Below are positions 11,413 to 64,000 of a stretch of DNA of 64,000 nt, piece by piece. Source of the DNA: Daucus carota subsp. sativus (Eukaryota; Streptophyta; Magnoliopsida; Apiales; Apiaceae). How positions within the stretch are numbered: position 1 is the stretch's first letter; each line of letters opens with the position of its first letter. The stretch covers positions 28,384,527 through 28,448,526 of the forward strand of contig NC_030384.2 of the NCBI RefSeq assembly GCF_001625215.2, read 5' to 3'. The position numbers and the translations under genes are program-made. Below the pieces are notes generated by a model. The model worked only from the letters and a program-made list of their open reading frames with translations. It had not been told where the DNA came from and ran no database searches.

Positions 11413-17452
<6,040 letters not shown>

Positions 17453-33167: not shown

Positions 33168-33224
33168 ATTTTCAAGTGAAGTGTTTTGGAGCTACTAATG
33201 AATAACTGGGAGAAAGGCAGGGGG

Positions 33225-33232
33225 TTTATATA
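33225..33232 (-). promoter_or_regulatory. TATA box of the RNase H-fold gene
   Basis: The minus strand reads CCTATATAAACCCC, a textbook plant TATA box, 58 bases upstream of the ATG at 33167. Transcription would then start near 33195 and give a leader of about 30 bases. Confidence 0.6.
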
Positions 33233-33341
33233 GGAAGGGAGTGAGCTAGGGTTGCACATCTGCCAATAAGGTTAATTAAACAAGAGAACTCTTAACCCCA
33301 ACTCTTCAAATTCTAACTCAGCTGTGGTTTATAGTGCAGAG

Positions 33342-37477: not shown

Positions 37478-37515
37478 TTCCTAATTAAACTATAATGTAA
37501 CATACTGTGATGTAA

Positions 37516-39252: not shown

Positions 39253-39552
39253 GCTTCTCTCTAGTACAGTCTTATACAAATTGTGCTGCGTGTCTCTCCT
39301 ACTATTTTGTGTACCCAAGCCTTCCAGACTACGGCTATGGATTTGTCCAAGTGCTTCATTAATAGCAGTTTCCTCTCTTGAGTTCAATCTCTCCAATACC
39401 TTTCGATCTACCCATGAGTGATGCGCCCAGATGAAGTTGATTAGCTGTTGATCAGAAGCCCCCCTGCAGTGTTCCGATCCCAGTGGCCGTTGATTGATCG
39501 CCGACGATTTCAATTTTGAAATTTTGAATTTGGACCGCCCCAGTCGCCCTTA

Positions 39553-40120: not shown

Positions 40121-40439
40121 AATGAGCTTCTAATATATTTTTGGAATACTTTATTGATACTTGTTAAAAAAATAAGAATAGATTTTCATATGTAAAATAT
40201 ATTTATTATAATTAATTTTATATTTGTTTTTAGTAGTTATAGAATATTTTAATTATAAATTATTCAATTGCTTTTATCAATATATATAAACCAAACATTA
40301 AATTATATTTTTAACAACCAATTGAAACGTTGTAAGAAAAAATTAGGCAAATATCTTTCACTTGTTTCAACCTATTTCAAGGTATTGCACAAATTTATGA
40401 AAATATTATTTTATGCAATCCTAGGGAATGAAGCCAAAT

Positions 40440-40548
40440 TCAATAATAGGTTCTACATAAAGTTATAAATTTTACAAATTTCCCAATAGTCTAAAAATAA
40501 GGAGGAATGTGTATCCTTGAACCCAACTCTAGTAGGCTTATTGTTTTG
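40440..40548 (-). pseudogene. Stub of DRM 3' end, unit 1
   Basis: The minus strand reads the last part of the methyltransferase (TRVG..., SSLFLDYW, then ITL.RTYY and TGA at 40442-40440) about 1.45 kb downstream of the full gene. A small deletion ('aatttcccaatag' where the other units have 'ttcaagaatacgccaatag') breaks it. Similarity to the full gene covers the last 35-40 codons and the bases just after the stop; beyond that the two diverge. Confidence 0.7.
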
Positions 40549-40950
40549 AGAAAAAAAGTTTAGGGAGGATCAACCCCCTTATTGTAATGGTCTACATTGT
40601 GTTGCCTTATTTAATTGGTAAAAGAGTGTATTATTCCTCTAAATAAATCAATTATAGAATAATAATATATATCTCTTGCCATTATATGATACAAATCGAG
40701 TTAAATTATTTTAGCTTTTTGCTTATTTATCCTTGAAATATGTTCCTTGAACCCACGATATTCCTTGAGTTGTATTTTTGGAATTCTCCTGTTCCTTGAA
40801 ATCTATTCCATGTAGAATTAATTAGAGTACAGTTGAACTCCTTTGTTTTGTTAAAGAATTGTGGCTCACTTTCAAAACTCACAAATAAAGATGTTTCAAT
40901 ACAAAGATAATAATATATGTTGAACTCAAAAGTATATTATAGAAATACTA

Positions 40951-41186
40951 AGGGTTCGTTTCGGGTATTTTAAGAGAAGTGACTTCTCGCTTAAAAATAG
41001 AAGTGAGAAATAAATTAATAATTATAAGTTATTAAAGTGTTTGGAAAAGAAGTAGAAGTTGGTAAAGAAAAACTAACATTTTCTACTTTCAACTTCTTCC
41101 TCACCAACTTCTTAACCCCAAACAGGTTAAAGAAAAGCAGAAGTAAATAGTTGGAGCTGACTTGTGGTTCCCAAACAGGGGCTATA
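40951..41186. mobile_element. MITE inside repeat unit 1 (also in units 2-5)
   Basis: Starts GGGTTCGTTTCGGGTATTTT and ends TTCCCAAACAGGGGCTATAA, an imperfect inverted pair. Equivalent copies begin at about 46308, 51652, 57002 and 62350. Since all units share it at the same place, it was present before the array was amplified. Related to the MITE at 30751. Confidence 0.6.
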
Positions 41187-41892
41187 AGTATTCTAGTTTA
41201 AACAACTAAAACGATTACAATGTTCACTTCTATGAATATGGGAGGATGAAGAATTGGTTGAAGTTAAGAAAAGGTAATTTCAATTTTAATCATCCACTTT
41301 CTATAATTTTGGATTTTATTACTTGTACGAATTCATAATAGACAAATTCTAATAAATTATAAAGTAGGAGCACATGTGTCTTTAATATAAATTATAAATA
41401 AGAAACTAATTAAGCAAGTGATTAGGATGGTCACTTTTCAAAATCAAGTATTAAATAATTCCTATACTATATTTTGAGAATCAATTACCCCTTTATGTAA
41501 AAATAATTATGAATGTTATCAAAATATAACTTGTAGGTATATTTATATTTAATTGTAATCGTTGCCCGTTTTTCAAACACTCTTTGAATAAGATCTTTCA
41601 TTTTTGTATCCAAAATTAAAAAATTAAAATGATCATCATGAACACATATTAATTTTGAAATTTAAATTTTTACTCAATCCAACTAATTTATAGGACTTTG
41701 AGCATTTCCCCAGCACATGTATATTTTTGCAGGTCATGTAGTATAACATATGGAAGCTTCACACAATATTGCAGCATATAAAAATTCATTAATGTATTAT
41801 AAAATTAATCTAATCAAAACTTTATGGAAATATTATTTTATAACAAATGACAATTTTTCACTATTATGCAATCCTAGGGAATGAAGCCAAAT

Positions 41893-44800
41893 TCAATAAT
41901 AGGTTCTGCACAAAGTTATAAAGTTTACAGATTCAAGAATACGCCAATAGTCTAAAAATAAGGAGGATTGTTCACCCTTGAACCCAACTCTAGTACGCCT
42001 ATTGTTTCCAGCAAAATTGTTGCAGGGACTTCCACCAATTACAAGATCAAAGCCCCCACACATATCAATTAGTTCTCTTAGCTTTTGATGGGTTAGATAT
42101 TTCACATCGGAGATATGAATCAGCTTGCCCTGCTGGTTACTTCTTTTCCACCATCTGAGCATAACATCTCGACAAGCCTTTGAACACTCTACGGAGACTA
42201 CAAACTTTAGGGGAATTTGGAGCTTATGTAGGGCAACTTCAGCTCCACCAATGCCAGAGAACAATGAAAGAACCTTAATGCCTTCAGGAAACAATCACTT
42301 TAATACTGAGAGATGATATCCTACGGTGTTGACCTAAAACAATTTACAAATTTAGAACAAAATATGCATATGAATTAATAAATAAAATTACTAATATATA
42401 CTAGTTAATTTCATAAAGCATACCTGGAATGTGTTTCCAAGGCACCGATATCGAGCACTGCGGCTCAACATATCTGTGTGACCGTCTGGAAATCCCATTA
42501 TTTTCTCGATCTGTTTGGGGTGGAGGGGTGCCACTTTATTGTTTCCCACCCAAATAAAATTATATTTCCTGCAAACTTGAAGCACCTTTTTTCTGATGTG
42601 TGGGGGTGGTTCAGTTCCACAATTATCAAGCTCTTCACTTATCTTCTTGGTATGCTTTGGACGTCCATTATTAGTAACTATACAGTTTAGCTTGATCCTC
42701 GGATCCCATTTAGGCCAGGAAGTTTTAGTGGAAGGAAGGGCTCCAAATATGGTGGATGGAGGGGTGGGAAGAATTGGAAACCTCTTATCAATGGGAAGGT
42801 TGTGAATGTAACCTCTTTTTCTTGCCGCCGCAGAAAAATATATTGAGTCCACAAATTCGGGCTCAATATCGTAGAGGAAATTACTCATAGTTTCCCACAC
42901 CCCTTTTGGTGCACGTGCTACATTCTCAAAATAGAAATATGGAGGCCCCTTCCCACCTCCTCTTGCTGGAATATTTCTTGGGATACGTTCCCGATCCCTA
43001 GTAATCACAACATTATTAGGTTTTTGCACAACATGAGGAACTCCGAATCCTGTCATTGGCGTCCTACGGATACTTTCCCTCTTACATTTTATATTTAGGC
43101 CAACATCATTTAATCCTGCTTTGACACGATAACAATTTGTTAGACAACATGTGTAGTTCATGAAAACACTGTACCTGAAATAACATTCTAAAGTTGTATT
43201 TGACATTATTACCTTGTATAAAATGTTGTGCATCAGTTATCGGACTTTGTACACCTGCAGAGTTTGAAGAGCTAAGTAATCAACTTTATTGATGTTAAAC
43301 AAGTATTGTATCTAGCATAGATACTAACCACATCTTCCAATAGCTTCAAATGCTTCACCACATGTAAATCCCATTTCTCGTAAAATTGCCATGCCCTGCG
43401 AGAATGTGGACCGGTAATGATAAAAAGGTTGATTTGATTGTTAAAAAGTAGCATAAAATCACAATTTTAACAAATCACTTTATTATAAATGCATCTATCT
43501 TTTAATATAAAGTGTTATATGTAAACGACGAGATAAAATCTTGTTTCTTTTTATTCTCCAAACATTGTACAGTGTGTGAGAGAAAATAAAATCATTAATG
43601 AGTATAAAGTTTATAATAATTTCCAATAACTTTTGACAAACCTAAGTATAGGATGATTAATTTACTTGTACTTGAATATTTTCGCTCCATTGTTGATACC
43701 TTAACAAGTATGACTTATTGCATGATTCTTTCCACCTAATGTTGCATTTGAGTAACCTGAATAGATATTACCTCTCAAACACAAACCTTATTCACACTTG
43801 AGAGGCTGACATGATTAGATCTTATGTGAGGAAGATTAAATACATGATTAATGTATCTTAATTATAATTAACATATCTACCGTCTAAGAAGGCCACAAGA
43901 AAACAGCATATTCAACTTTAAACTTGTGATAATGTACTAATTTAGTTCGAAGACCTCTCTGAAAGACGACTCCCTGAAATATATTAATAGTGTGTGAGGA
44001 ATTCTTGTGTCCACACACTTTAAGACTATACTATGTGAAGATATTGAAGGATGGAGGTTTTATGCATTCGTTTTGTCAAAGACTAGTTATCCCCGTATTT
44101 ATTTTATAAAATCACAGTTGAGTCCTCACAAACTATGAATGTTCACCTTCAAACTATTTTGAAATAGAAAAGTAGAATAATTCATGAAATAAGTATATTT
44201 CTTTGCATGTTACATGTGTAAATGACTGTCGATCGATCATACTAATTAAAGCAGATTCATATCTTTGTCATAAATCTTCACATAATTGGAGATGTCAAGT
44301 TGACATAAAAAGGAAAGTGAGGCCTTAACATATAAGTAAGAGAGAATGAATTGAAATTTACAAAATAATTCACCTTATATGTGAGAATAGTATTGAATAC
44401 TGCTTCTTCATTGTATGCACCTATACAAATTCAAGACGAAAAAATGAGCTACATACCAATTTGGGGTAAAAAGACAATTCCAATTCCTTGAGGATACATA
44501 AGAGTAAGTGATAAGAGTAATTTTACCATGTTCTTCTATTGCCCTGACCACAACTTTCCAAGGATATCCCATTACTAGTAACCTGTCACACAGGCTACTC
44601 CTCATGGAACTTGCCTGGAGAAAAGACACTATACTATAAACATGTAGATCTTAAACAAAATTCACCTAATAAAATAACCAATACAAATCAGCTAAACAAA
44701 TTAATATCAAATACAACATTTTCATTCCCAATCATTTCAACATTTAAACTAATATCATAAATATAATAGATTTATATTTGTTGTGTTTCGAGTTAAAAAA

Positions 44801-45192
44801 ACTAATTACATAAGATATACAAACACAGTTACGAATTTATACACAAATAAAATAAGATGCAAGTGGTTATGGAAATATAGTCAAATGAAAACTTAGCTGA
44901 TTTATGTACCTTCCAATTGGACCGAGTAAATTTCCCAACAATGTTGAAGATCCCAATCTCATGGCTGCTGCGGCCACTAGTACTTTTATTATTTTGTTCA
45001 CTTAATATCTGATATTTCACAATCAAACAAAACAGTTAACAGCCTATACATCTCGATTGAACATTAGTTAACAGCCTATACATCTCGATTGAACATTGAA
45101 TTATAGCTGGATGACGGATAGACTCATTGAAGATAAAAAAAATTTAAAGACACCTTTTTTGAAGGCCATGAACTATTGTTAGGGTTCGCCAT
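41893..45192 (-). pseudogene. DRM: DRM-like DNA methyltransferase, copy 1, premature stop
   Basis: Eight exons, all phases compatible: 45192-45154, 45008-44910, 44614-44527, 44420-44374, 43395-43329, 43254-43213, 43115-42424 and 42333-41893; 1515 nt, 504 codons plus TGA. DRM enzymes set de novo cytosine methylation guided by 24-nt siRNAs. The N-terminal part has UBA-like segments (LLVMGYPWKVVVRAIEEHG; MAILREMGFTCGEAFEAIGRC). Then the order typical of DRM: GPPYFYFENVARAPKGVW (Glu near 191), FPSTK-like region ALPSTKTSWPKWDPR, RCLGNTFQ, and only then motif I FSGIGG (about 383) and motif IV GGSPCNN (Cys near 462). In this copy codon 371 is TGA (42297-42295) where the others have AGA, just before motif I. 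The product would lack the SAM-binding and catalytic-Cys part. Otherwise the frame is open. Confidence 0.85.
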
Positions 45193-45286
45193 CTTAAAAG
45201 CTGCGGCGGTAGTACTAGGCGGCGGCTCTTAGTTATATGTAAGAGAGAAAGGTGATTGTAAGTTGCTATTTCATTTCTTTACCAAT

Positions 45287-45299
45287 GTATATATATATA
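45287..45299 (-). promoter_or_regulatory. TATA box and upstream motifs of DRM copy 1
   Basis: The minus strand reads CTATATATATATAC about 95 bases before the ATG at 45192. Upstream (higher coordinates) are GGCCCA at 45322-45327 and TGGGCT at 45351-45356, like the plant site II (TGGGCY) motifs bound by TCP factors. The same arrangement, with a shorter TA run, is found in units 2-4 near 50633, 55987 and 61331. Confidence 0.55.
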
Positions 45300-45789
45300 G
45301 AAAAACCTCTATGTCTGCCCAGGCCCACAAGTTTATATCATTTCAATAAATGGGCTTCTTTCTTACAATATGAATTAAATTTTTAGTGTGGTATGTAACT
45401 GTATAAATTTTATCAATAGTAAATAATTATTAATACAACAACAGTTGTAATGATAAAAAATCGAGAAGAATGAGCTTCTAATATATTTTTGGAACACTTT
45501 ATTAATACTTGTTAAAAAATAAGAATAGATTTTCATATGTAAAATATATTTATTATAATTAATTTTATATTTGTTTTTAGTAGTTATAGAATATTTTAAT
45601 TATAAATTATATCAATTGCTTTTATCAATATATATATAAACCAAACATTAAATTATATTTTTAACAACCAATCGAAACGTTGTAAGAAAAAATTAGGCAA
45701 ATATCTTTCACTTGTTTCAACCTATTTCAAGGTATTGCACAAATTTATGAAAATATTATTTTATGCAATCCTAGGGAATGAAGCCAAAT

Positions 45790-45900
45790 TCAATAATAGG
45801 TTCTACACAAAGTTATAAATTTTACAAATTCAAGAATACGCCAATAGTCTAAAAATAAGGAGGATTGTGTATCCTTCAACCCAACTCTAGTAGGCTTATT
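45790..45900 (-). pseudogene. Stub of DRM 3' end, unit 2
   Basis: On the minus strand NNKPTRVGLKDTQSSLFLDY, then WRILEFVKFITL and the same terminal residues as the full gene, ending at TGA 45792-45790. The sequence upstream does not keep the catalytic SPCNN block, and no splice-ready 5' part is present, so it is a fragment of an older duplication. Confidence 0.7.
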
Positions 45901-47247
45901 GTTTTGAGAAAAAAAGTTTAAGGAGGTTCAACCCCCTTATTGTAATGGTCTACATTGTGTTACCTTATGTAATTGGTAAAAGAGTATATTATTCCTCTAA
46001 ATAAATCAATAATAGAATAATAATATATATCTCTTTCCATTATAGGATACAAATCGAGTTAAATTATTTTAGCTTTTTGCTTATTTATCCTTGAAATATG
46101 TTCCTTGAACCCACGATATTCCTTGAGTTGTATTTTTGGAATTCTCCTGTTCCTTGGAATCTATTCCAAGTAGAATTAATTAGAGTACAGATGAACTCCT
46201 TTGTTTTGTTAAAGAATTGTTGCTCACTTTCAAAACTCACAAATAAAGATGTTTCAATACAAATAATAATTTATGTTGAACTCAAAAGTATATTATAGAA
46301 ATACTAAGGGTTCGTTTCCGGTATTTTAAAAGAAGTGACTTATCGCTTAAAAATAGAAGTGAGAAATAAATTAATAATTATAAGTTATTAAAGTGTTCGG
46401 AAAAAAAGTAGAAGTTGGTAAAGAAAAACTAGCATTTTTACTTTCAACTTCTTCCTCACCAACTTCTTAACCCCAAACAGGTCAAAGAAAAGCAGAAGTA
46501 AAGAGTTGGAGCTGACTTGTGCTACCCAAACAGGGGCTATAAGTATTCTAGTTTAAACAACTAAAACGATTACAATGTTCACTTCTATGAATATGGGAGG
46601 ATGAAAAATTGGTTGAAGTTAAGAAAAGGTAATTTCAATTTTAATCATCCACTTTCTATAATTTTGGATTTTATTACTTGTACGAATTCATAATAGACAA
46701 ATTCTAATAAATTATAAAGTAGGAGCACATGTGTCTTTAATATAAATTATAAATAAGAAACTAATTAAGCAAGTGATTAGGATGGTCACTTTTCAAAATC
46801 AAGTATTAAATAATTCCTATACTATATTTTGAGAATCAATTACCCCTTTATGTAAAAATAATTATGAATGTTATCAAAATATAACTTGTAGGTATATTTA
46901 TATTTAATTGTAATCGTTGCCCGTTTTTCAAACACTCTTTGAATAAGATCTTTAATTTTTGTATCCAAAATTAAAAAATTAAAATGATCATCATGAACAC
47001 ATATTAATTTTGAAATTTAAATTTTTACTCAATCCAACTAATTTATAGGACTTTGAGCATTTCCCCAGCACATGTATATTTTTGCAGGTCATGTAGTATA
47101 ACATATGGAAGCTTCACACAATATTGCAGCATATAAAAATTCATTAATATATTATAAAATTAATCTAATCAAAACTTTATGGAAATATTATTTTATAACA
47201 AATGACAATTTTTCACTATTATGCAATCCTAGGGAATGAAGCCAAAT

Positions 47248-50200
47248 TCAATAATAGGTTCTGCACAAAGTTATAAAGTTTACGGATTCAAGAATACGCC
47301 AATAGTCTAAAAATAAGGAGGATTGTTCACCCTTGAACCCAACTCTAGTACGCCTATTGTTTCCAGCAAAATTGTTGCAGGGACTTCCACCAATTACAAG
47401 ATCAAAGCCCCCACACATGTCAATTAGTTCTCTTAGCTTTTGATGGGTTAGATATTTCACATCGGAGATATGAATCAGCTTGCCCTGCTGGTTACTTCTT
47501 TTCCACCATCTGAGCATAACATCTCGACAAGCCTTTGAACACTCTACGGAGACTACAAACTTTAGGGGAATTTGGAGCTTATGTAGAGCAACTTCAGCTC
47601 CACCAATGCCAGAGAACAATGAAAGAACCTTAATGCCTTCAGGAAACAATCTCTTTAATACTGAGAGATGATATCCTACCGTGTTGACCTAAAACAATTT
47701 ACAAATTTAGAACAAAATATGCATATGAATTAATAAATAAAATTACTAATATATACTAGTTAATTTCATAAAGCATACCTGGAATGTGTTTCCAAGGCAC
47801 CGATATCGAGCACTGCGGCTCAACATATCTGTGTGACCGTCTGGAAATCCCATTATTTTCTCGATCTGTTTGGGGTGGAGGGGTGCCACTTTATTGTTTC
47901 CCACCCAAATAAAATTATATTTCCTGCAAACTTGAAGCACCTTTTTTCTGATGTGTGGGGGTGGTTCAGTTCCACAATTATCAAGCTCTTCACTTATCTT
48001 CTTGGTATGCTTTGGACGTCCATTATTAGTAACTATACAGTTTAGCTTGATCCTCGGATCCCATTTAGGCCAGGAAGTTTTAGTGGAAGGAAGGGCTCCA
48101 AATATGGTGGATGGAGGGGTGGGAAGAATTGGAAACCTCTTATCAATGGGAAGGTTGTGAATGTAACCTCTTTTTTTTGCCGCAGCAGAAAAATATATTG
48201 AGTCCACAAATTCGGGCTCAATATCGTAGAGGAAATTACTCATAGTTTCCCACACCCCTTTTGGTGCACGTGCTACATTCTCAAAATAGAAATATGGAGG
48301 CCCCTTCCCTCCTCCTCTTGCTGGAATATTTCTTGGGATACGTTCCCGATCCCTAGTAATCACAACATTATTAGGTTTTTGCACAACATGAGGAACTCCG
48401 AATCCTGTCATTGGCGTCCTACGGATACTTTCCCTCTTACATTTTATATTTAGGCCAACATCATTTAATCCTGCTTTGACACGATAACAATTTGTTAGAC
48501 AACATGTGTAGTTCATGAAAACACTGTACCTGAAATAACATTCTAAAGTTGTATTTGACATTATTACCTTGTATAAAATGTTGTGCATCAGTTATCGGAC
48601 TTTGTACACCTGCAGAGTTTGAAGAGCTAAGTAATCAACTTTATTGATGTTAAACAAGTATTGTATCTAGCATAGATACTAACCACATCTTCCAATAGCT
48701 TCAAATGCTTCACCACATGTAAATCCCATTTCTCGTAAAATTACCACGCCCTGCGAGAATGTGGACCGGTAATGATAAAAAGGTTGATTTGATTGTTAAA
48801 AAGTAGCATAAAATCACAATTTTAACAAATCACTTTATTATAAATGCATCTATCTTTTAATATAAAGTGTTATATGTAAACGACGAGATAAAATCTTGTT
48901 TCTTTTTATTCTCCAAACATTGTACAGTGTGTGAGAGAAAATAAAATCATTAATGAGTATAAAGTTTATAATAATTTCCAATAACTTTTGACAAACCTAA
49001 GTATAGGATGATTAATTTACTTGTAATTGAATATTTTCGCTCCATTGTTGATACCTTAACAAGTATGACTTATTGCATGATTCTTTCCACCTAATGTTGC
49101 ATTTGAGTAACCTGAATAGATATTACCTCTCAAACACAAACCTTATTCACACTTGAGAGGCTGACATGATTAGATCTTATGTGAGGAAGATTAAATACAT
49201 GATTAATGTATCTTAATTATAATTAACATATCTACCGTCTAAGAAGGCCACAAGAAAACAGCATATTCAACTTTAAACTTGTGATAATGTACTAATTTAG
49301 TTCGAAGACCTCTCTGAAAGACGACTCCCTGAAATATATTAATAGTGTGTGAGGAATTCTTGTGTCCACACACTTTAAGACTATACTATGTGAAGATATT
49401 GAAGGATGGAGGTTTTATGCATTCGTTTTGTCAAAGACTAGTTATCCCCGTATTTATTTTATAAAATCACAGTTGAGTCCTCACAAACTATGAATGTTCA
49501 CCTTCAAACTATTTTGAAATAGAAAAGTAGAATAATTCATGAAATAAGTATATTTCTTTGCATGTTACATGTGTAAATGACTGTCGATCATACTAATTAA
49601 AGCAGATTCATATCTTTGTCATAAATCTTCACATAATTGGAGATGTCAAGTTGACATAAAAAGGAAAGTGAGGCCTTAACATATAAGTAAGAGAGAATGA
49701 ATTGAAATTTACAAAATAATTCACCTTATATGTGAGAATAGTATTGAATACTGCTTCTTCATTGTATGCACCTATACAAATTCAAGACGAAAAAATGAGC
49801 TACATACCAATTTGGGGTAAAAAGACAATTCCAATTCCTTGAGGATACATAAGTTTAGTGATAAGAGTAATTTTACCATGTTCTTCTATTGCCCTGACCA
49901 CAACTTTCCAAGGATATCCCATTACTAGTAACCTGTCACACAGGCTACTCCTCATGGAACTTGCCTGGAGAAAACACACTATACTATAAACATGTAGATC
50001 TTAAACAAAATTCACCTAATAAAATAACCAATACAAATCAGCTAAACAAATTAATATCAAATACAACATTTTCATTCCCAATCATTTCAAGATTTAAACT
50101 AATATCATAAATATAATAGATTTATATTTGCTGTGTTTCGAGTTAAAAAAACTAATTACATAAGATATACAAACACACTTATGAATTTATACACAAATAA

Positions 50201-50538
50201 AATAAGATGCAAGTGGTTATGGAAATATAGTCAAATGAAAACTTAGCTGATTTATGTACCTTCCAATTGGACCGAGTAAATTTCCCAACAATGTTGAAGA
50301 TCCCAATCTCATGGCTGCTGCGGCCACTAGTTTATTATTTTGTTCACTTAATATCTGATATTTCACAATCAAACAAAACAGTTAACAGCCTATACATCTC
50401 CATTGAACATTAGTTAACAGCCTATACAGCTCGATTGAACATTGAATTATAGCTGGATGACGGATAGACTCATTGAAGATAAAAAAAATTTAAAGGCACC
50501 TTTTTTGAAGGCCATGAACTATTGTTAGGGTTCGCCAT
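47248..50538 (-). pseudogene. DRM: DRM-like DNA methyltransferase, copy 2, 4-bp deletion in exon 2
   Basis: Same eight-exon layout as copy 1, from ATG at 50538 to TGA at 47248. The catalytic exons (exon 7 near 48470-47779, exon 8 at 47688-47248) are open and carry AGA where copy 1 has TGA, so the methyltransferase half is intact. Exon 2 lacks 4 bases at about 50330 ('cactagtttatt' against 'cactagtacttttatt'), which shifts the frame ahead of the UBA-like segment. Start of exon 5 reads GVVILREMGF instead of GMAILREMGF, and a K replaces R in SAAAKKRGY. Use of a downstream ATG could still yield a shortened enzyme, so it may not be fully dead. Confidence 0.75.
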
Positions 50539-51131
50539 CTTAAAAGCTGCGGCGGTAGTACTAGACGGCGGCTCTTAGTTATATGTAAGAGAGAAAGGTG
50601 ATTGTAAGTTGCTATTTCATTTCTTTACCAATGTATATATAGAAAAACCTCTATGTCAGCCCAGGCCCACAAGTTTATATCATTTCAATAAGTGGGCTTC
50701 TTTCTTACAATATGAATTAAATTTTTAGTGTGGTATGTAACTGTATAAATTTTATCAATAGTAAATAATTATTAATACAACAACAGTTGTAATGATAAAA
50801 AATCGAGAAGAATGAGCTTCTAATATATTTTTGGAACACTTTATTAATACTTGTTAAAAAATAAGAATAGATTTTCATATGTAAAATATATTTATTATAA
50901 TTAATTTTATATTTGTTTTTAGTAGTTATAGAATATTTTAATTATAAATTATATCAATTGCTTTTATCAATATATATATAAACCAAACATTAAATTATAT
51001 TTTTAAAACCCAATTGAAACGTTGTAAGAAAAAATTAGGCAAATATCTTTCACTTGTTTCAACCTATTTCAAGGTATTGCACAAATTTATGAAAATATTA
51101 TTTTATGCAATCCTAGGGAATGAAGCCAAAT

Positions 51132-51242
51132 TCAATAATAGGTTCTACACAAAGTTATAAATTTTACAAATTCAAGAATACGCCAATAGTCTAAAAATAA
51201 GGAGGATTGTGTATCCTTCAACCCAACTCTAGTAGGCTTATT
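51132..51242 (-). pseudogene. Stub of DRM 3' end, unit 3
   Basis: Same fragment as in unit 2, with the same differences from the full gene (KDTQSSLF where the gene has KGEQSSLF), ending at TGA 51134-51132. Confidence 0.7.
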
Positions 51243-52592
51243 GTTTTGAGAAAAAAAGTTTAAGGAGGTTCAACCCCCTTATTGTAATGGTCTACATTGT
51301 GTTACCTTATGTAATTGGTAAAAGAGTATATTATTCCTCTAAATAAATCAATTATAGAATAATAATATATATCTCTTTCCATTATAGGATACAAATCGAG
51401 TTAAATTATTTTAGCTTTTTGCTTATTTATCCTTGAAATATGTTCCTTGAACCCACGATATTCCTTGAGTTGTATTTTTGGAATTCTCCTGTTCCTTGGA
51501 ATTTATTCCAAGTAGAATTAATTAGAGTACAGATGAACTCCTTTGTTTTGTTAAAGAATTGTTGCTCACTTTCAAAACTCACAAATAAAGATGTTTCAAT
51601 ACAAAGATAATAATTTATGTTGAACTCAAAAGTATATTATAGAAATACTAAGGGTTCGTTTCCGGTATTTTAAAAGAAGTGACTTATCGTTTAAAAATAG
51701 AAGTGAGAAATAAATTAATAATTATAAGTTATTAAAGTGTTCCGAAAAAAAGTAGAAGTTGGTAAAGAAAAACTAGCATTTTCTACTTTCAACTTCTTCC
51801 TCACCAACTTCTTAACCCGAAACAGGTCAAAGAAAAGCAGAAGTAAAGAGTTGGAGCTGACTTGTGCTACCCAAACAGGGGCTATAAGTATTCTAGTTTA
51901 AACAACTAAAACGATTACAATGTTCACTTCTATGAATATGGGAGGATGAAGAATTGGTTGAAGTTAAGAAAAGGTAATTTCAATTTTAATCATCCACTTT
52001 TTATAATTTTGGATTTTATTACTTGTACGAATTCATAATAGACAAATTCTAATAAATTATAAAGTAGGAGCACATGTGTCTTTAATATAAATTATAAATA
52101 AGAAACTAATTAAGCAAGTGATTAGGATGGTCACTTTTCAAAATCAAGTATTAAATAATTCCTATACTATATTTTGAGAATCAATTACCCCTTTATGTAA
52201 AAATAATTATGAATGTTATCAAAATATAACTTGTAGGTATATTTATATTTAATTGTAATCGTTGCCCGTTTTTCAAACACTCTTTGAATAAGATCTTTAA
52301 TTTTTGTATCCAAAATTAAAAAATTAAAATGATCATCATGAACACATATTAATTTTGAAATTTAAATTTTTACTCAATCCAACTAATTTATAGGACTTTG
52401 AGCATTTCCCCAGCACATGTATATTTTTGCAGGTCATGTAGTATAACATATGGAAGCTTCACACAATATTGCAGCATATAAAAATTCATTAATGTATTAT
52501 AAAATTAATCTAATCAAAACTTTATGGAAATATTATTTTATAACAAATGACAATTTTTCACTATTATGCAATCCTAGGGAATGAAGCCAAAT

Positions 52593-55500
52593 TCAATAAT
52601 AGGTTCTGCACAAAGTTATAAAGTTTACAGATTCAAGAATACGCCAATAGTCTAAAAATAAGGAGGATTGTTCACCCTTGAACCCAACTCTAGTACGCCT
52701 ATTGTTTCCAGCAAAATTGTTGCAGGGACTTCCACCAATTACAAGATCAAAGCCCCCACACATATCAATTAGTTCTCTTAGCTTTTGATGGGTTAGATAT
52801 TTCACATCGGAGATATGAATCAGCTTGCCCTGCTGGTTACTTCTTTTCCACCATCTGAGCATAACATCTCGACAAGCCTTTGAACACTCTACGGAGACTA
52901 CAAACTTTAGGGGAATTTGGAGCTTATGTAGGGCAACTTCAGCTCCACCAATGCCAGAGAACAATGAAAGAACCTTAATGCCTTCAGGAAACAATCTCTT
53001 TAATACTGAGAGATGATATCCTACGGTGTTGACCTAAAACAATTTACAAATTTAGAACAAAATATGCATATGAATTAATAAATAAAATTACTAATATATA
53101 CTAGTTAATTTCATAAAGCATACCTGGAATGTGTTTCCAAGGCACCGATATCGAGCACTGCGGCTCAACATATCTGTGTGACCGTCTGGAAATCCCATTA
53201 TTTTCTCGATCTGTTTGGGGTGGAGGGGTGCCACTTTATTGTTTCCCACCCAAATAAAATTATATTTCCTGCAAACTTGAAGCACCTTTTTTCTGATGTG
53301 TGGGGGTGGTTCAGTTCCACAATTATCAAGCTCTTCACTTATCTTCTTGGTATGCTTTGGACGTCCATTATTAGTAACTATACAGTTTAGCTTGATCCTC
53401 GGATCCCATTTAGGCCAGGAAGTTTTAGTGGAAGGAAGGGCTCCAAATATGGTGGATGGAGGGGTGGGAAGAATTGGAAACCTCTTATCAATGGGAAGGT
53501 TGTGAATGTAACCTCTTTTTCTTGCCGCCGCAGAAAAATATATTGAGTCCACAAATTCGGGCTCAATATCGTAGAGGAAATTACTCATAGTTTCCCACAC
53601 CCCTTTTGGTGCACGTGCTACATTCTCAAAATAGAAATATGGAGGCCCCTTCCCTCCTCCTCTTGCTGGAATATTTCTTGGGATACGTTCCCGATCCCTA
53701 GTAATCACAACATTATTAGGTTTTTGCACAACATGAGGAACTCCGAATCCTGTCATTGGCGTCCTACGGATACTTTCCCTCTTACATTTTATATTTAGGC
53801 CAACATCATTTAATCCTGCTTTGACACGATAACAATTTGTTAGACAACATGTGTAGTTCATGAAAACACTGTACCTGAAATAACATTCTAAAGTTGTATT
53901 TGACATTATTACCTTGTATAAAATGTTGTGCATCAGTTATCGGACTTTGTACACCTGCAGAGTTTGAAGAGCTAAGTAATCAACTTTATTGATGTTAAAC
54001 AAGTATTGTATCTAGCATAGATACTAACCACATCTTCCAATAGCTTCAAATGCTTCACCACATGTAAATCCCATTTCTCGTAAAATTGCCGTGCCCTGCG
54101 AGAATGTGGACCGGTAATGATAAAAAGGTTGATTTGATTGTTAAAAAGTAGCATAAAATCACAATTTTAACAAATCACTTTATTATAAATGCATCTATCT
54201 TTTAATATAAAGTGTTATATGTAAACGACGAGATAAAATCTTGTTTCTTTTTATTCTCCAAACATTGTACAGTGTGTGAGAGAAAATAAAATCATTAATG
54301 AGTATAAAGTTTATAATAATTTCCAATAACTTTTGACAAACCTAAGTATAGGATGATTAATTTACTTGTACTTGAATATTTTCGCTCCATTGTTGATACC
54401 TTAACAAGTATGACTTATTGCATGATTCTTTCCACCTAATGTTGCATTTGAGTAACCTGAATAGATATTACCTCTCAAACACAAACCTTATTCACACTTG
54501 AGAGGCTGACATGATTAGATCTTATGTGAGGAAGATTAAATACATGATTAATGTATCTTAATTATAATTAACATATCTACCGTCTAAGAAGGCCACAAGA
54601 AAACAGCATATTCAACTTTAAACTTGTGATAATGTACTAATTTAGTTCGAAGACCTCTCTGAAAGACGACTCCCTGAAATATATTAATAGTGTGTGAGGA
54701 ATTCTTGTGTCCACACACTTTAAGACTATACTATGTGAAGATATTGAAGGATGGAGGTTTTATGCATTCGTTTTGTCAAAGACTAGTTATCCCCGTATTT
54801 ATTTTATAAAATCACAGTTGAGTCCTCACAAACTATGAATGTTCACCTTCAAACTATTTTGAAATAGAAAAGTAGAATAATTCATGAAATAAGTATATTT
54901 CTTTGCATGTTACATGTGTAAATGACTGTCGATCGATCATACTAATTAAAGCAGATTCATATCTTTGTCATAAATCTTCACATAATTGGAGATGTCAAGT
55001 TGACATAAAAAGGAAAGTGAGGCCTTAACATATAAGTAAGAGAGAATGAATTGAAATTTACAAAATAATTCACCTTATATGTGAGAATAGTATTGAATAC
55101 TGCTTCTTCATTGTATGCACCTATACAAATTCAAGACGAAAAAATGAGCTACATACCAATTTGGGGTAAAAAGACAATTCCAATTCCTTGAGGATACATA
55201 AGAGTAAGTGATAAGAGTAATTTTACCATGTTCTTCTATTGCCCTGACCACAACTTTCCAAGGATATCCCATTACTAGTAACCTGTCACACAGGCTACTC
55301 CTCATGGAACTTGCCTGGAGAAAAGACACTATACTATAAACATGTAGATCTTAAACAAAATTCACCTAATAAAATAACCAATACAAATCAGCTAAACAAA
55401 TTAATATCAAATACAACATTTTCATTCCCAATCATTTCAACATTTAAACTAATATCATAAATATATTAGATTTATATTTGTTGTGTTTCGAGTTAAAAAA

Positions 55501-55892
55501 ACTAATTACATAAGATATACAAACACACTTACGAATTTATACACAAATAAAATAAGATGCAAGTGGTTATGGAAATATAGTCAAATGAAAACTTAGCTGA
55601 TTTATGTACCTTCCAATTGGACCGAGTAAATTTCCCAACAATGTTGAAGATCCCAATCTCATGGCTGCTGCGGCCACTAGTACTTTTATTATTTTGTTCA
55701 CTTAATATCTGATATTTCACAATCAAACAAAACAGTTAACAGCCTATACATCTCGATTGAACATTAGTTAACAGCCTATACAGCTCGATTGAACATTGAA
55801 TTATAGCTGGATGACGGATAGACTCATTGAAGATAAAAAAATTTTAAAGGCACCTTTTTTGAAGGCCATGAACTATTGTTAGGGTTCGCCAT
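52593..55892 (-). CDS. DRM: DRM-like DNA methyltransferase, copy 3, intact
   Basis: De novo cytosine methyltransferase of the DRM type, predicted nuclear. Exons: 55892-55854, 55708-55610, 55314-55227, 55120-55074, 54095-54029, 53954-53913, 53815-53124 and 53033-52593, an exact +10700 shift of copy 1, giving 504 codons without interruption. Both the ENV block (FENVARAPKG) and SPCNN are kept, so it is of the catalytic DRM1/2 kind and not the inactive DRM3 kind. Exon 5 begins GTAILREMGF (copy 1: GMAILREMGF). Compared with Arabidopsis DRM2 (about 626 residues) the N-terminus is short: I see two UBA-like segments. The end, ILESVNFITLCRTYY, differs from the usual ILEVVR tail. Borders of exons 1 and 2 are the least certain, as the encoded residues are not conserved. 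Confidence 0.85.
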
Positions 55893-56487
55893 CTTAAAAG
55901 CTGCGGCGGTAGTACTAGGCGGCGGCTCTTAGTTATATGTAAGAGAGAAAGGTGATTGTAAGTTGCTATTTCATTTCTTTACCAATGTATATATAGAAAA
56001 ACCTCTATGTCAGCCCAGGCCCACAAGTTTATATCATTTCAATAAATGGGCTTCTTTCTTACAATATGAATTAAATTTTTAGTGTGGTATGTAACTGTAT
56101 AAATTTTATCAATAGTAAATAATTATTAATACAACAACAGTTGTAATGATAAAAAATCGAGAAGAATGAGCTTCTAATATATTTTTGGAACACTTTATTA
56201 ATACTTGTTAAAAAATAAGAATAGATTTTCATATGTAAAAATATATTTATTATAATTAATTTAATATTTGTGTTTAGTAGTTATAGAATATTTTAATTAT
56301 AAATTATATCAATTGCTTTTATCAATATATATATAAACCAAACATTAAATTATATTTTTAACAAACAATTGAAACGTTGTAAGAAAAAATTAGGCAAATA
56401 TCTTTCACTTGTTTCAACCTATTTCAAGGTATTGCACAAATTTATAAAAAATATTATTTTATGCAATCCTAGGGAATGAAGCCAAAT

Positions 56488-56598
56488 TCAATAATAGGTT
56501 CTACACAAAGTTATAAATTTTACAAATTCAAGAATACGCCAATAGTCTAAAAATAAGGAGGATTGTGTATCCTTCAACCCAACTCTAGTAGGCTTATT
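56488..56598 (-). pseudogene. Stub of DRM 3' end, unit 4
   Basis: Same fragment as in units 2 and 3, ending at TGA 56490-56488. Confidence 0.7.
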
Positions 56599-57941
56599 GT
56601 TTTGAGAAAAAAAGTTTAAGGAGGTTCAACCCCCTTATTGTAATGGTCTACATTGTGTTACCTTATGTAATTGGTAAAAGAGTATATTATTCCTCTAAAT
56701 AAATCAATTATAGAATAATAATATATATCTCTTTCCATTATAGGATACAAATCGAGTTAAATTATTTTAGCTTATTTATCTTTGAAATATGTTCCTTGAA
56801 CCCACGATATTCCTTGAGTTGTATTTTTGGAATTCTCCTGTTCCTTGGAATCTATTCCAAGTAGAATTAATTAGAGTACAGATGAACTCCTTTGTTTTGT
56901 TAAAGAATTGTTGCTCACTTTCAAAACTCACAAATAAAGATGTTTCAATACAAAGATAATAATTTATGTTGAACTCAAAAGTATATTATAGAAATACTAA
57001 GGTTTCGTTTCCGGTATTTTAAAAGAAGTGACTTATCGCTTAAAAATAGAAGTGAGAAATAAATTAATAATTATAAGTTATTAAAGTGTTCCGAAAAAAA
57101 GTAGAAGTTGGTAAAGAAAAACTAGCATTTTCTACTTTCAACTTCTTCCTCACCAACTTCTTAACCCCAAACAGGTCAAAGAAAAGCAGAAGTAAAGAGT
57201 TGGAGCTGACTTGTGCTACCCAAACAGGGGCTATAAGTATTCTAGTTTAAACAACTAAAACGATTACAATGTTCACTTCTATGAATATGGGAGGATGAAG
57301 AATTGGTTGAAGTTAAGAAAAGGTAATTTCAATTTTAATCATCCACTTTCTATAATTTTGGATTTTATTACTTGTACGAATTCATAATAGACAAATTCTA
57401 ATAAATTATAAAGTAGGAGCACATGTGTCTTTAATATAAATTATAAATAAGAAACTAATTAAGCAAGTGATTAGGATGGTCACTTTTCAAAATCAAGTAT
57501 TAAATAATTCCTATACTATATTTTGAGAATCAATTACCCCTTTATGTAAAAATAATTATGAATGTTATCAAAATATAACTTGTAGGTATATTTATATTTA
57601 ATTGTAATCGTTGCCCGTTTTTCAAACACTCTTTGAATAAGATCTTTAATTTTTGTATCCAAAATTAAAAAATTAAAATGATCATCATGAACACATATTA
57701 ATTTTGAAATTTAAATTTTTACTCAATCCAACTAATTTATAGGACTTTGAGCATTTCCCCAGCACATGTATATTTTTGCAGGTCATGTAGTATAACATAT
57801 GGAAGCTTCACACAATATTGCAGCATATAAAAATTCATTAATGTATTATAAAATTAATCTAATCAAAACTTTATGGAAATATTATTTTATAACAAATGAC
57901 AATTTTTCACTATTATGCAATCCTAGGGAATGAAGCCAAAT

Positions 57942-60900
57942 TCAATAATAGGTTCTGCACAAAGTTATAAAGTTTACAGATTCAAGAATACGCCAATAGT
58001 CTAAAAATAAGGAGGATTGTTCACCCTTGAACCCAACTCTAGTACGCCTATTGTTTCCAGCAAAATTGTTGCAGGGACTTCCACCAATTACAAGATCAAA
58101 GCCCCCACACATATCAATTAGTTCTCTTAGCTTTTGATGGGTTAGATATTTCACATCGGAGATATGAATCAGCTTGCCCTGCTGGTTACTTCTTTTCCAC
58201 CATCTGAGCATAACATCTCGACAAGCCTTTGAACACTCTACGGAGACTACAAACTTTAGGGGAATTTGGAGCTTATGTAGGGCAACTTCAGCTCCACCAA
58301 TGCCAGAGAACAATGAAAGAACCTTAATGCCTTCAGGAAACAATCTCTTTAATACTGAGAGATGATATCCTACGGTGTTGACCTAAAACAATTTACAAAT
58401 TTAGAACAAAATATGCATATGAATTAATAAATAAAATTACTAATATATACTAGTTAATTTCATAAAGCATACCTGGAATGTGTTTCCAAGGCACCGATAT
58501 CGAGCACTGCGGCTCAACATATCTGTGTGACCGTCTGGAAATCCCATTATTTTCTCGATCTGTTTGGGGTGGAGGGGTGCCACTTTATTGTTTCCCACCC
58601 AAATAAAATTATATTTCCTGCAAACTTGAAGCACCTTTTTTCTGATGTGTGGGGGTGGTTCAGTTCCACAATTATCAAGCTCTTCACTTATCTTCTTGGT
58701 ATGCTTTGGACGTCCATTATTAGTAACTATACAGTTTAGCTTGATCCTCGGATCCCATTTAGGCCAGGAAGTTTTAGTGGAAGGAAGGGCTCCAAATATG
58801 GTGGATGGAGGGGTGGGAAGAATTGGAAACCTCTTATCAATGGGAAGGTTGTGAATGTAACCTCTTTTTCTTGCCGCAGCAGAAAAATATATTGAGTCCA
58901 CAAATTCGGGCTCAATATCGTAGAGGAAATTACTCATAGTTTCCCACACCCCTTTTGGTGCACGTGCTACGTTCTCAAAATAGAAATATGGAGGCCCCTT
59001 CCCTCCTCCTCTTGCTGGAATATTTCTTGGGATACGTTCCCGATCCCTAGTAATCACAACATTATTAGGTTTTTGCACAACATGAGGAACTCCGAATCCT
59101 GTCATTGGCGTCCTACGGATACTTTCCCTCTTACATTTTATATTTAGGCCAACATCATTTAATCCTGCTTTGACACGATAACAATTTGTTAGACAACATG
59201 TGTAGTTCATGAAAACACTGTACCTGAAATAACATTCTAAAGTTGTATTTGACATTATTACCTTGTATAAAATGTTGTGCATCAGTTATCGGACTTTGTA
59301 CACCTGCAGAGTTTGAAGAGCTAAGTAATCAACTTTATTGATGTTAAACAAGTATTGTATCTAGCATAGATACTAACCACATCTTCCAATAGCTTCAAAT
59401 GCTTCACCACATGTAAATCCCATTTCTCGTAAAATTGCCATGCCCTGCGAGAATGTGGACCGGTAATGATAAAAAGGTTGATTTGATTGTTAAAAAGTAG
59501 CATAAAATCACAATTTTAACAAATCACTTTATTATAAATGCATCTATCTTTTAATATAAAGTGTTATATGTAAACGACGAGATAAAATCTTGTTTCTTTT
59601 TATTCTCCAAACATTGTACAGTGTGTGAGAGAAAATAAAATCATTAATGAGTATAAAGTTTATAATAATTTCCAATAACTTTTGACAAACCTAAGTATAG
59701 GATGATTAATTTACTTGTACTTGAATATTTTCGCTCCATTGTTGATACCTTAACAAGTATGACTTATTGCATGATTCTTTCCACCTAATGTTGCATTTGA
59801 GTAACCTGAATAGATATTACCTCTCAAACACAAACCTTATTCACACTTGAGAGGCTGACATGATTAGATCTTATGTGAGGAAGATTAAATACATGATTAA
59901 TGTATCTTAATTATAATTAACATATCTACCGTCTAAGAAGGCCACAAGAAAACAGCATATTCAACTTTAAACTTGTGATAATGTACTAATTTAGTTCGAA
60001 GACCTCTCTGAAAGACGACTCCCTGAAATATATTAATAGTGTGTGAGGAATTCTTGTGTCCACACACTTTAAGACTATACTATGTGAAGATATTGAAGGA
60101 TGGAGGTTTTATGCATTCGTTTTGTCAAAGACTAGTTATCCCCGTATTTATTTTATAAAATCACAGTTGAGTCCTCACAAACTATGAATGTTCACCTTCA
60201 AACTATTTTGAAATAGAAAAGTAGAATAATTCATGAAATAAGTATATTTCTTTGCATGTTACATGTGTAAATGACTGTCGATCATACTAATTAAAGCAGA
60301 TTCATATCTTTGTCATAAATCTTCACATAATTGGAGATGTCAAGTTGACATAAAAAGGAAAGTGAGGCCTTAACATATAAGTAAGAGAGAATGAATTGAA
60401 ATTTACAAAATAATTCACCTTATATGTGAGAATAGTATTGAATACTGCTTCTTCATTGTATGCACCTATACAAATTCAAGACAAAAAATGAGCTACATAC
60501 CAATTTGGGGTAAAAAGACAATTCCAATTCCTTGAGGATACATAAGAGTAAGTGATAAGAGTAATTTTACCATGTTCTTCTATTGCCCTGACCACAACTT
60601 TCCAAGGATATCCCATTACTAGTAACCTGTCACACAGGCTACTCCTCATGGAACTTGCCTGGAGAAAAGACACTATACTATAAACATGTAGATCTTAAAC
60701 AAAATTCACCTAATAAAATAACCAATACAAATCAGCTAAACAAATTAATATCAAATACAACATTTTCATTCCCAATCATTTCAACATTTAAACTAATATC
60801 ATAAATATAATAGATTTATATTTGTTGTGTTTCGAGTTAAAAAAACTAATTACATAAGATATACAAACACACTTACGAATTTATACACAAATAAAATAAG

Positions 60901-61236
60901 ATGCAAGTGGTTATGGAAATATAGTCAAATGAAAACTTAGCTGATTTATGTACCTTCCAATTGGACCGAGTAAATTTCCCAACAATGTTGAAGATCCCAA
61001 TCTCATGGCTGCTGCGGCCACTAGTACTTTTATTATTTTGTTCACTTAATATCTGATATTTCACAATCAAACAAAACAGTTAATAGCCTATACATCTCGA
61101 TTGAACATTAGTTAACAGCCTATACAGCTCGATTGAACATTGAATTATAGCTGGATGACGGATAGACTCATTGAAGATAAAAAAATTTTAAAGGCACCTT
61201 TTTTGAAGGCCATGAACTATTGTTAGGGTTCGCCAT
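57942..61236 (-). CDS. DRM: DRM-like DNA methyltransferase, copy 4, intact
   Basis: Same eight exons; ATG at 61236, exon 3 at 60658-60571, exon 4 at 60465-60419, exon 7 at 59164-58473, exon 8 at 58382-57942. Length differences from copy 1 (4 bp near 60278 and 1 bp near 60483) fall in introns. Exon 2 has the complete 'actagtacttttatt' stretch, exon 5 starts GMAILREMGF, exon 8 has AGA before motif I, and FENVA, FSGIGG and SPCNN are all present. One synonymous change is visible in the ENV block (AAC for AAT). By reading, this and copy 3 are the two copies able to make a full enzyme. Confidence 0.85.
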
Positions 61237-61839
61237 CTTAAAAGCTGCGGCGGTAGTACTAGACGGCGGCTCTTAGTTATATGTAAGAGAGAAAGGTGAT
61301 CGTAAGTTGCTATTTCATTTCTTTACCAATGTATATATAGAAAAACCTCTATGTCAGCCCAGGCCCACAAGTTTATATCATTTCAATAAATGGGCTTCTT
61401 TCTTACAATATGAATTAAATTTTTAGTGTGGTATGTAACTGTATAAATTTTATCAATAGTAAATAATTATTAATACAACAACAGTTGTAATGATAAAAAA
61501 TCGAGAAGAATGAGCTTCTAATATATTTTTGGAACACTTTATTAATACTTGTTAAAAAATAAGAATAGATTTTCATATGTAAAATATATTTATTATAATT
61601 AATTTTATATTTGTTTTTAGTAGTTATAGAATATTTTAATTATAAATTATATCAATTGCTTTTATCAATATATATATAAACCAAACATTAAATTATATTT
61701 TTAACAACCAATTGAAACGTTGTAAGAGAAAATTAGGCAAATATCTTTCACTTGTTTCAACCTATTTCAAGGTATTGCACAAATTTATGAAAATATTATT
61801 TTATGCAATCCTAGGGAATGAAGCCAAATTCAATAATAG

Positions 61840-61950
61840 GTTCTACACAAAGTTATAAATTTTACAAATTCAAGAATACGCCAATAGTCTAAAAATAAGG
61901 AGGATTGTGTATCCTTCAACCCAACTCTAGTAGGCTTATTGTTTTGAGAA
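61840..61950 (-). pseudogene. Stub of DRM 3' end, unit 5
   Basis: Same fragment as in units 2-4, ending at TGA 61842-61840. Confidence 0.7.
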
Positions 61951-63290
61951 AAAAAGTTTAAGGAGGTTCAACCCCCTTATTGTAATGGTCTACATTGTGT
62001 TACCTTATGTAATTGGTAAAAGAGTATATTATTCCTCTAAATAAATCAATAATAGAATAGTAATATATATCTCTTTCCATTATAGGATACAAATCGAGTT
62101 AAATTATTTTATCTTTTTGCTTATTTATCCTTGAAATATGTTCCTTGAACCCACGATATTCCTTGAGTTGTATTTTTGGAATTCTCCTGTTCCTTGGAAT
62201 CTATTCCAAGTAGAATTAATTAGAGTACAGATGAACTCCTTTGTTTTGTTAAAGAATTGTTGCTCACTTTCAAAACTCACAAATAGAGATGTTTCAATAC
62301 AAAGATAATAATTTATGTTGAACTCAAAAGTATATTATAGAAATACTAAGGGTTCGTTTCCGGTATTTTAAAAGAAGTGACTTATCGCTTAAAAATAGAA
62401 GTGAGAAATAAATTAATAATTATAAGTTATTAAAGTGTTCGGAAAAAAAGTAGAAGTTGGTAAAGAAAAACTAGCATTTTCTACTTTCAACTTCTTTCTC
62501 ACCAACTTCTTAACCCCAAACAGGTCAAAGAAAAGCAGAAGTAAAGAGTTGGAGCTGACTTGTGCTACCCAAACAGGGGCTATAAGTATTCTAGTTTAAA
62601 CAACTAAAAGGATTACAATGTTCACTTCTATGAATATGGGAGGATGAAAAATTGGTTGAAGTTAAGAAAAGGTAATTTCAATTTTAATCATCCACTTTCT
62701 ATAATTTTGGATTTTATTACTTGTACGAATTCATAATAGAAAAATTCTAATAAATTATAAAGTAGGAGCACATGTGTCTTTAATATAAATTATAAATAAG
62801 AAACTAATTAAGCAAGTGATTAGGATGGTCACTTTTCAAAATCAAGTATTAAATAATTCCTATACTATATTTTGAGAATCAATTACCCCTTTATGTAAAA
62901 ATAATTATGAATGTTATCAAAATATAACTTGTAGGTATATTTATATTTAATTGTAATCGTTGCCCCTTTTTCAAACACTCTTTGAATAAGATCTTTAATT
63001 TTTGTATCCAAAATTAAAAAATTAAAATGATCATCATGAACACATATTAATTTTGAAATTTAAATTTTTACTCAATCCAACTAATTTATAGGACTTTGAG
63101 CATTTCCCCAGCACATGTATATTTTTGCAGGTCATGTAGTATAACATATGGAAGCTTCACACAATATTGCAGCATATAAAAATTCATTAATGTATTATAA
63201 AATTAATCTAATCAAAACTTTATGGAAATATTATTTTATAACAAATGACAATTTTTCACTATTATGCAATCCTAGGGAATGAAGCCAAAT

Positions 63291-64000
63291 TCAATAATAG
63301 GTTCTACACAAAGTTATAAAGTTTACAGATTCAAGAATACGCCAATAGTCTAAAAATAAGGAGGATTGTTCACCCTTGAACCCAACTCTAGTACGCCTAT
63401 TGTTTCCAGCAAAATTGTTGCAGGGACTTCCACCAATTACAAGATCAAAGCCCCCACACATATCAATTAGTTCTCTTAGCTTTTGATGGGTTAGATATTT
63501 CACATCGGAGATATGAATCAGCTTGCCCTGCTGGTTACTTCTTTTCCACCATCTGAGCATAACATCTCGACAAGCCTTTGAACACTCTACGGAGACTACA
63601 AACTTTAGGGGAATTTGGAGCTTATGTAGAGCAACTTCAGCTCCACCAATGCCAGAGAACAATGAAAGAACCTTAATGCCTTCAGGAAACAATCTCTTTA
63701 ATACTGAGAGATGATATCCTACGGTGTTGACCTAAAACAATTTACAAATTTAGAACAAAATATGCATATGAATTAATAAATAAAATTACTAATATATACT
63801 AGTTAATTTCATAAAGCATACCTGGAATGTGTTTCCAAGGCACCGATATCGAGCACTGCGGCTCAACATATCTGTGTGACCGTCTGGAAATCCCATTATT
63901 TTCTCGATCTGTTTGGGGTGGAGGGGTGCCACTTTATTGTTTCCCACCCAAATAAAATTATATTTCCTGCAAACTTGAAGCACCTTTTTTCTGATGTGTG
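63291..64000 (-). CDS. DRM: DRM-like DNA methyltransferase, copy 5, partial
   Basis: Exon 8 (63731-63291) is complete and open, with AGA before motif I, FSGIGG, SPCNN and the same terminal residues. Exon 7 begins to be visible from 63822 upward (RCLGNTFQ, GFPDGHTDML, KYNFIWVGNNKVAPL) and runs out of the window. Whether the N-terminal exons are intact cannot be seen. The array therefore continues past the window. Confidence 0.85.

Follow-up and report, generated by a model that had tools for sequence, protein, structure and literature searches.

The window analysed here is a 64,000-base stretch of chromosome C4 of the carrot Daucus carota subsp. sativus (C4:28384527-28448526, in a genome of 441,086,747 bases and 11 contigs), and its right-hand part holds a head-to-tail array of genes for a DRM-type DNA methyltransferase. 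When the window was compared with itself by BLAST, off-diagonals spaced by multiples of ~5.35 kb appeared between 40,092 and 64,000, at 97.7-99.0% identity, and mark five successive units of 5.34-5.35 kb (U1 to U5; Table 1). Such units had been proposed from the sequence alone, and the self-comparison, the order of the methyltransferase motifs and the matches to known structures all bear this out; the true left edge lies ~30 bases further left than the position 40121 first given. The four full units are 5346, 5342, 5354 and 5344 bases long, their six pairs being 98.80-99.64% identical over aligned bases. The fifth stops at the window edge with 2523 bases inside, and is 98.05-99.44% identical to the other four on the same measure (four pairs).

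The array and the state of its copies

The array was followed past the window by joining the window to the next three stretches, giving 90,474 bases without N runs, in which the window numbering is continued. It ends ~10.5 kb beyond the window edge and comprises about seven units, six of them full (the core units U1-U5 and a chimeric U6) and the last, U7, partial; the original prediction of four full units and one partial unit thus describes the window correctly and the whole array too modestly. Once completed past the window, U5 is 5350 bases long. U6 contains an insertion of 766 bp, and at the U6/U7 junction the last ~100 bases of the unit are missing.

The gene in each full unit is of the DRM2 type and has eight exons, read from the minus strand; in U1-U5 all seven introns have GT-AG ends. 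The U5 gene reaches position 66586 and is intact once read past the edge; its spliced product of 504 amino acids is identical to the database protein P0001, from which the U3 product differs at two residues and the U4 product at one. Three predicted proteins (P0001-P0003) match the array. An open frame with canonical splice sites is found in three of the seven units (U3, U4 and U5), so that a whole gene per unit, as first proposed, holds for these and fails for the other four, U1 and U2 inside the window and U6 and U7 past its edge. In U1, codon 371, which is AGA in U2-U7, is an in-frame TGA that was also listed by an independent genome search, and motifs I and IV lie downstream of it. The U2 frame is shifted by the loss of 4 bp from exon 2 (50260-50354). 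The U6 frame is open if spliced like the other units; its exon 3 acceptor has changed from AG to CG and its exon 5 donor from GT to CT, and the substitution G62R alters the first MGY, in a UBA loop. The 357-residue P0003 is contained in the U6 frame and starts within the catalytic half. U7 is a partial, frameshifted and broken fragment. Because U1, U2, U6 and U7 bear separate lesions, the array is also decaying, and the gain in dose would be about three genes rather than seven. Since only three units look fully intact, the array is better described as a real gene amplification than as a proven boost to silencing.

The spacers of U1-U6 contain a ~144-bp direct copy of the last exon's 3' end with the adjacent flank, which we read as a probable remnant of an earlier duplication. 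Upstream of the U1 start codon lies a TATA-like run with a putative promoter role, and at this site U2-U5 have a shorter TA run.

Table 1. Coordinates of the array features, in window numbering
Feature	Position	Strand	Basis
U1, edge unit, gene with nonsense codon	40092..45437	-	self-BLAST, unit pairs, spliced-frame reading
U1 exon 7, target recognition part, motifs VI-X to start of motif X (U2-U6 have an equivalent exon)	42424..43115	-	
U1 exon 8, end of motif X, motif I (FSGIGG), motif IV (SPCNN), C-terminus	41893..42333	-	
U1 in-frame TGA, codon 371 (AGA in U2-U7), before motif I	42295..42297	-	
TATA-like run, ~96-107 bp before U1 start codon (putative promoter)	45288..45299	-	
U2, gene with 4-bp exon 2 deletion, frameshift	45438..50779	-	spliced-frame reading
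U3, intact 504-codon DRM-like gene	50780..56133	-	spliced-frame reading
U3 exons	55854-55892, 55610-55708, 55227-55314, 55074-55120, 54029-54095, 53913-53954, 53124-53815, 52593-53033	-	
U4, intact 504-codon DRM-like gene	56134..61477	-	spliced-frame reading
U4 exons	61198-61236, 60954-61052, 60571-60658, 60419-60465, 59378-59444, 59262-59303, 58473-59164, 57942-58382	-	
U5, truncated at window edge, with exon 8 (63291-63731) and some of exon 7 in the window	61478..64000	-	
Unit spacer, putative remnant of a second gene 3' end	40411..40546	-	self-comparison, joined sequence
Further putative spacer relics of gene 3' end	45761-45904, 51103-51246, 56459-56602, 61801-61944		

The encoded protein and its relatives

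Exon 7 aligns with the front, and exon 8 with the back, of the crystal structures of tobacco NtDRM (4onj) and Arabidopsis AtDRM2 (7l4c/7l4h), so that motifs VI-X precede motifs I-V in the rearranged order of DRM enzymes; the motif names in these two exons are those that we presume to apply. Motif IV reads SPCNN, and the equivalents of AtDRM2 C587, N588, G592, R595 and R598 are all identical in the array protein. These are catalytic or DNA-contact residues according to the excerpted text of PMC10711165, which in one place names R592 as the arginine finger. The best Foldseek matches are DRM crystal structures (top match 54% identity, E 2e-34). Intact copies thus encode a protein that has the catalytic fold of DRM2 and its key residues, and this product would be an active de novo methyltransferase.

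The AlphaFold model of the array protein has a mean predicted local distance difference test score (pLDDT) of 67.8. It places N-terminal helices at residues 54-60, 65-75, 80-98, 103-113 and 119-131, with MGY (61-63) between helices one and two and MGF (99-101) between helices three and four, both in loops. In the part of PMC2965745 consulted, DRM UBA domains carry MGF/MGY as their loop motif, and we read this N-terminus as two predicted UBA folds. The array protein shares with Arabidopsis DRM2 and tobacco NtDRM the motif order, the Pro-Cys of motif IV, the catalytic loop contacts, the MGY/MGF motifs and, as far as its predicted model goes, the fold of the catalytic half. It differs from DRM2 in a shorter N-terminus and in its separate Apiaceae clade, and carrot keeps a canonical DRM2 elsewhere. 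In alignment A1 it is 48-52% identical to 28 DRM2-type proteins from outside the Apiaceae and 54-61% identical to five from within.

Two DRM clusters, of which the array is one, were found in the carrot genome, where all counts of DRM genes are lower bounds by the search tool's own note. The second, more diverged cluster (C2:46.771-46.789 Mb; L012-L014) holds at least four copies, two of which, C2a (P0004) and C2c (P0008), map completely to predicted proteins, the two others being fragmentary. Among the matches listed, the closest named relative of the array protein is the Daucus carota DRM2 P0004 (55%), followed by Apium proteins. C2a and C2c share a similar exon-intron plan with the array gene and are its nearest relatives; the array gene lacks a ~45-residue linker stretch that they possess, and is 68% (C2a) and 63% (C2c) identical to them over the catalytic half. 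Unlike the array units, C2a and C2c are not homogenised and have diverged strongly, with 65% identity between them.

In each of three trees (22, 26 and 26 rows), the array gene and C2c grouped together (support 99/94), and this pair joined C2a, two celery proteins and one Heracleum protein (100/99). The resulting divergent clade stands apart from carrot canonical DRM2 and, in the two trees of 26 rows, also from that of celery; with that 100/99 separation, the array gene is not placed as an orthologue of canonical DRM2. A single clade of the array gene and canonical Apiaceae DRM2 was disfavoured in the approximately unbiased test (p-AU 0.02), with long branches present. C2c is sister to the array gene, and the terminal branches of both are long (array 0.43, C2c 0.53; C2a 0.032); since the program flagged C2c as long, their pairing is less sure than its support value. 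From these sequence comparisons, we regard the array gene as a non-canonical DRM of a divergent Apiaceae clade, belonging to a fast-evolving subclade found only in carrot among the matches listed. No orthologue of the array subclade outside carrot was present among the 120 listed of 1246 matches, nor among the 120 listed of 1007.

Non-synonymous (dN) and synonymous (dS) divergence between the array gene and C2a (NG86) was 0.215 and 0.952 in the catalytic half (343 codons; dN/dS about 0.23) and 0.488 and 1.032 in the N-terminus (134 codons; dN/dS about 0.47), ratios that are rough because dS is near 1; dS against canonical DRM2 was not computable. The values suggest that the catalytic half was under purifying selection in the past, since the C2a split, and that the N-terminus was held more loosely.

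An identity as an inactive DRM3-like paralog was considered and rejected, because the Pro-Cys of motif IV is encoded in frame in U3-U6. DRM3 has the DRM motif order, like the array gene, and a UBA pair, which the array gene may share, and lacks this Pro-Cys, on the account given in the part of PMC2965745 cited above. The carrot DRM3-like gene on C1 also lacks it, unlike the array.

History of the array and readings of it

Compared with U3, U1 differs at 42/1249 positions in its first 1.25 kb and at 10/4092 in the remainder, U6 at 20/3250 on the left and about 100/1929 in its right half, and U7 at 93/1674, with 52 further gap bases. The near-identity first claimed for whole units, introns and spacers included, therefore holds for the core and breaks down in these three outer stretches. 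A young, homogenised core is flanked by older edges (the left end of U1, the right half of U6, and U7), a pattern that fits unequal crossing-over with gene conversion as the likely process. A 4-bp indel groups U1 and U3 against U2, U4 and U5; this interleaving hints at exchange between units, although a single short indel could recur. With repeats that run head to tail through their spacers and with such signs of inter-unit exchange, the alternative of recent expansion or homogenisation, left undecided by the original prediction, is supported on both sides: the array is probably recent as well as homogenised, with older edges. At a plant substitution rate of 7e-9 per site and year, the separation of U3 and U4 would date back roughly 0.25 million years, and that of the U6 right half and of U7 from the core roughly 4 million.

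We consider it likely that this is a true tandem array on C4 of a lineage-specific DRM2 paralog, homogenised by unequal exchange or conversion and partly decaying. In such a history, head-to-tail duplication of the paralog would have been followed by unequal crossing-over and gene conversion, through which the inner units multiplied and became alike; the outer stretches would have retained their older divergence, and the separate lesions in U1, U2, U6 and U7 would reflect concurrent decay.

The core units are ~99% alike and exceed the length of short reads, and an assembler could in principle have multiplied one or two true units. This had been named as the main competing explanation; it now seems less likely than was then allowed, and we regard it as very improbable. 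U1-U5 are separated chiefly by substitutions (19-64 per pair), and only 0-3 of the 1-11 indel events per pair fall in homopolymers. Divergence is ordered, old at the edges and young in the core. Moreover, U6 carries its private insertion in intron 4 (70992-71757 in the joined numbering; L009), rich in GTTCGTGAAC-like repeats and bounded by 8-bp target duplications (ATGTCAAG), with ends TAGGGSTGTAAATGAG; we take this insertion to be hAT-like. The assembly is apparently DH1 v3, which the excerpted text of PMC10581907 describes as a doubled-haploid assembly that combines PacBio, Nanopore and Hi-C data, with 440.7 Mb in nine chromosomes; if so, alleles could not pose as copies.

A stronger competitor, though in our view still doubtful, is a decaying and mostly silent array, in which amplification was neutral and the copies are becoming pseudogenes. 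Gene-breaking or splice-site changes affect four of the seven units, the array gene sits on a long branch, and the exons of U7 differ from those of U3 (60/1113) no less than the introns do (5/185). Several results that speak for it, or that touch the protein, weigh against the array as we prefer to read it. Two of the five core copies (U1 and U2) are broken, and exons change no less than introns in four of the five core pairs computed (U2-U3: 0.60% in exons, 0.56% in introns; the exception is U1-U3, with 0.20% and 0.28%), so that the array shows no sign of selection at present. At the N-terminus, model confidence is moderate (10-residue means of ~68-82 over residues 51-130), the helix at 80-98 runs unbroken through both UBA-like parts, no UBA domain is among the Foldseek matches listed, and Pfam scores the methylase and no UBA domain in the array protein at E<=1; the canonical carrot DRM2 (P0155) is likewise without a Pfam UBA match, while AtDRM2 does score. 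Against an array of mere pseudogenes stand the three intact copies (U3-U5) and the purifying selection that the catalytic half of the lineage seems to have experienced since the C2a split.

Tandem repeats often attract silencing, and the array might yield small interfering RNAs (siRNAs) and be methylated by the very pathway that its product serves. The sequence signs on this point are mixed and weak. Among single-unit changes in U1-U6, counted with the majority of units as the ancestral state and coming mostly from U1 and U6, CG positions changed most per site (18/132, as compared with 14/171 for CHG, 60/1369 for CHH and 107/3681 for A/T), and one unit spacer is poor in CHG sites (observed/expected 0.57). 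However, the CG changes comprise 7 transitions and 11 transversions and the CHG changes 7 of each, without the transition excess of deamination, which makes a footprint of self-methylation unlikely. CpG observed/expected is 0.51 in U3, and 0.59, 0.48, 0.66, 0.91 and 0.38 in the five flank blocks. No long inverted repeat was present among the 19 inverted pairs in a unit, the longest having 37 nt at 70%, and a hairpin source of siRNA was rejected since all were short. Taken together, we judge a self-regulating locus to be highly unlikely. At gathering thresholds, the window contained 0 Rfam families.

A further reading, improbable in our estimation, is that the array and C2c represent a fast-evolving de novo methyltransferase of the carrot lineage with altered targeting, several homogenised copies of which are kept since its dose or variety is important, for instance in countering active transposons or in the germ line. 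If true, a DRM subfamily in evolutionary conflict would run in parallel to the conserved DRM2.

DRM-type de novo methyltransferases are generally regarded as few and conserved. In carrot, a separate DRM clade occupies two clusters, of which one is the homogenised array of ~7 units that mixes broken and intact copies. Homogenised tandem arrays in plants generally have head-to-tail units, unequal exchange, diverged edges and a mixture of intact and broken copies, and the present one differs from them only in the amplified gene, a de novo DNA methyltransferase paralog. The kind of array is already known, and it is the gene and the lineage that make it noteworthy. If the copies are expressed, they could serve to test whether an extra or diverged DRM alters transposon silencing, and methylation differences between carrot lines could be related to how many copies each line carries; if they are silent, the array offers a clear case of tandem birth and decay. 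In literature searches on carrot or Daucus with DRM2 or DNA methyltransferase, no description of the array appeared in the titles or abstract openings of the matches listed, and a term search of the main texts of the carrot telomere-to-telomere papers PMC10541555 and PMC12552772 found neither 'DRM' nor 'DNA methyltransferase'.

Other DRM loci and neighbouring features

The canonical carrot DRM2 was modelled at C4:35.37 Mb, and a second is likely at C3:48.35 Mb, judging from matches of 55-60% only. DRM3-like genes lie at C1:35.96 and C8:28.72 Mb, and DRM fragments on C1, C9 and C3. The C8 gene (L027; C8:28.7233-28.7250 Mb) keeps the Pro-Cys of motif IV (ICQNPC), and its motifs VI and X look altered on inspection by eye. 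A ~6.2-kb segment occurs at 91-94% identity on two chromosomes (C1:23.8097-23.8159 Mb, L015/L022; C9:43.6133-43.6194 Mb, L016/L023), with two DRM fragments per copy, none extending to motif I or IV. It may be a mobile element with captured DRM pieces; clear terminal inverted repeats were not found in the C1 copy. Four sites at C3:34.59-34.70 Mb (L018-L021) match introns or 5' parts of the DRM gene, and the ~10 kb read around each site show no catalytic part.

Directly left of the array, on the minus strand, lies a long interspersed nuclear element of the L1 type (window 32739-39549) with an RRM-bearing first open reading frame and a reverse transcriptase (PF00078); we presume a further frame to be endonuclease-like and the end to be RNase H-like. 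A partial protein kinase gene on the minus strand (window 16796-17473; Pkinase, 5.6e-42), which we take to be a calcium-dependent protein kinase, is probably the CPK13 of the original prediction. Between the two, minisatellites whose units of ~41-43 bp form small palindromes of the CCGACGC...GCGTCGG type are found at 26303-26643, 27211-27421 and 30254-30349.

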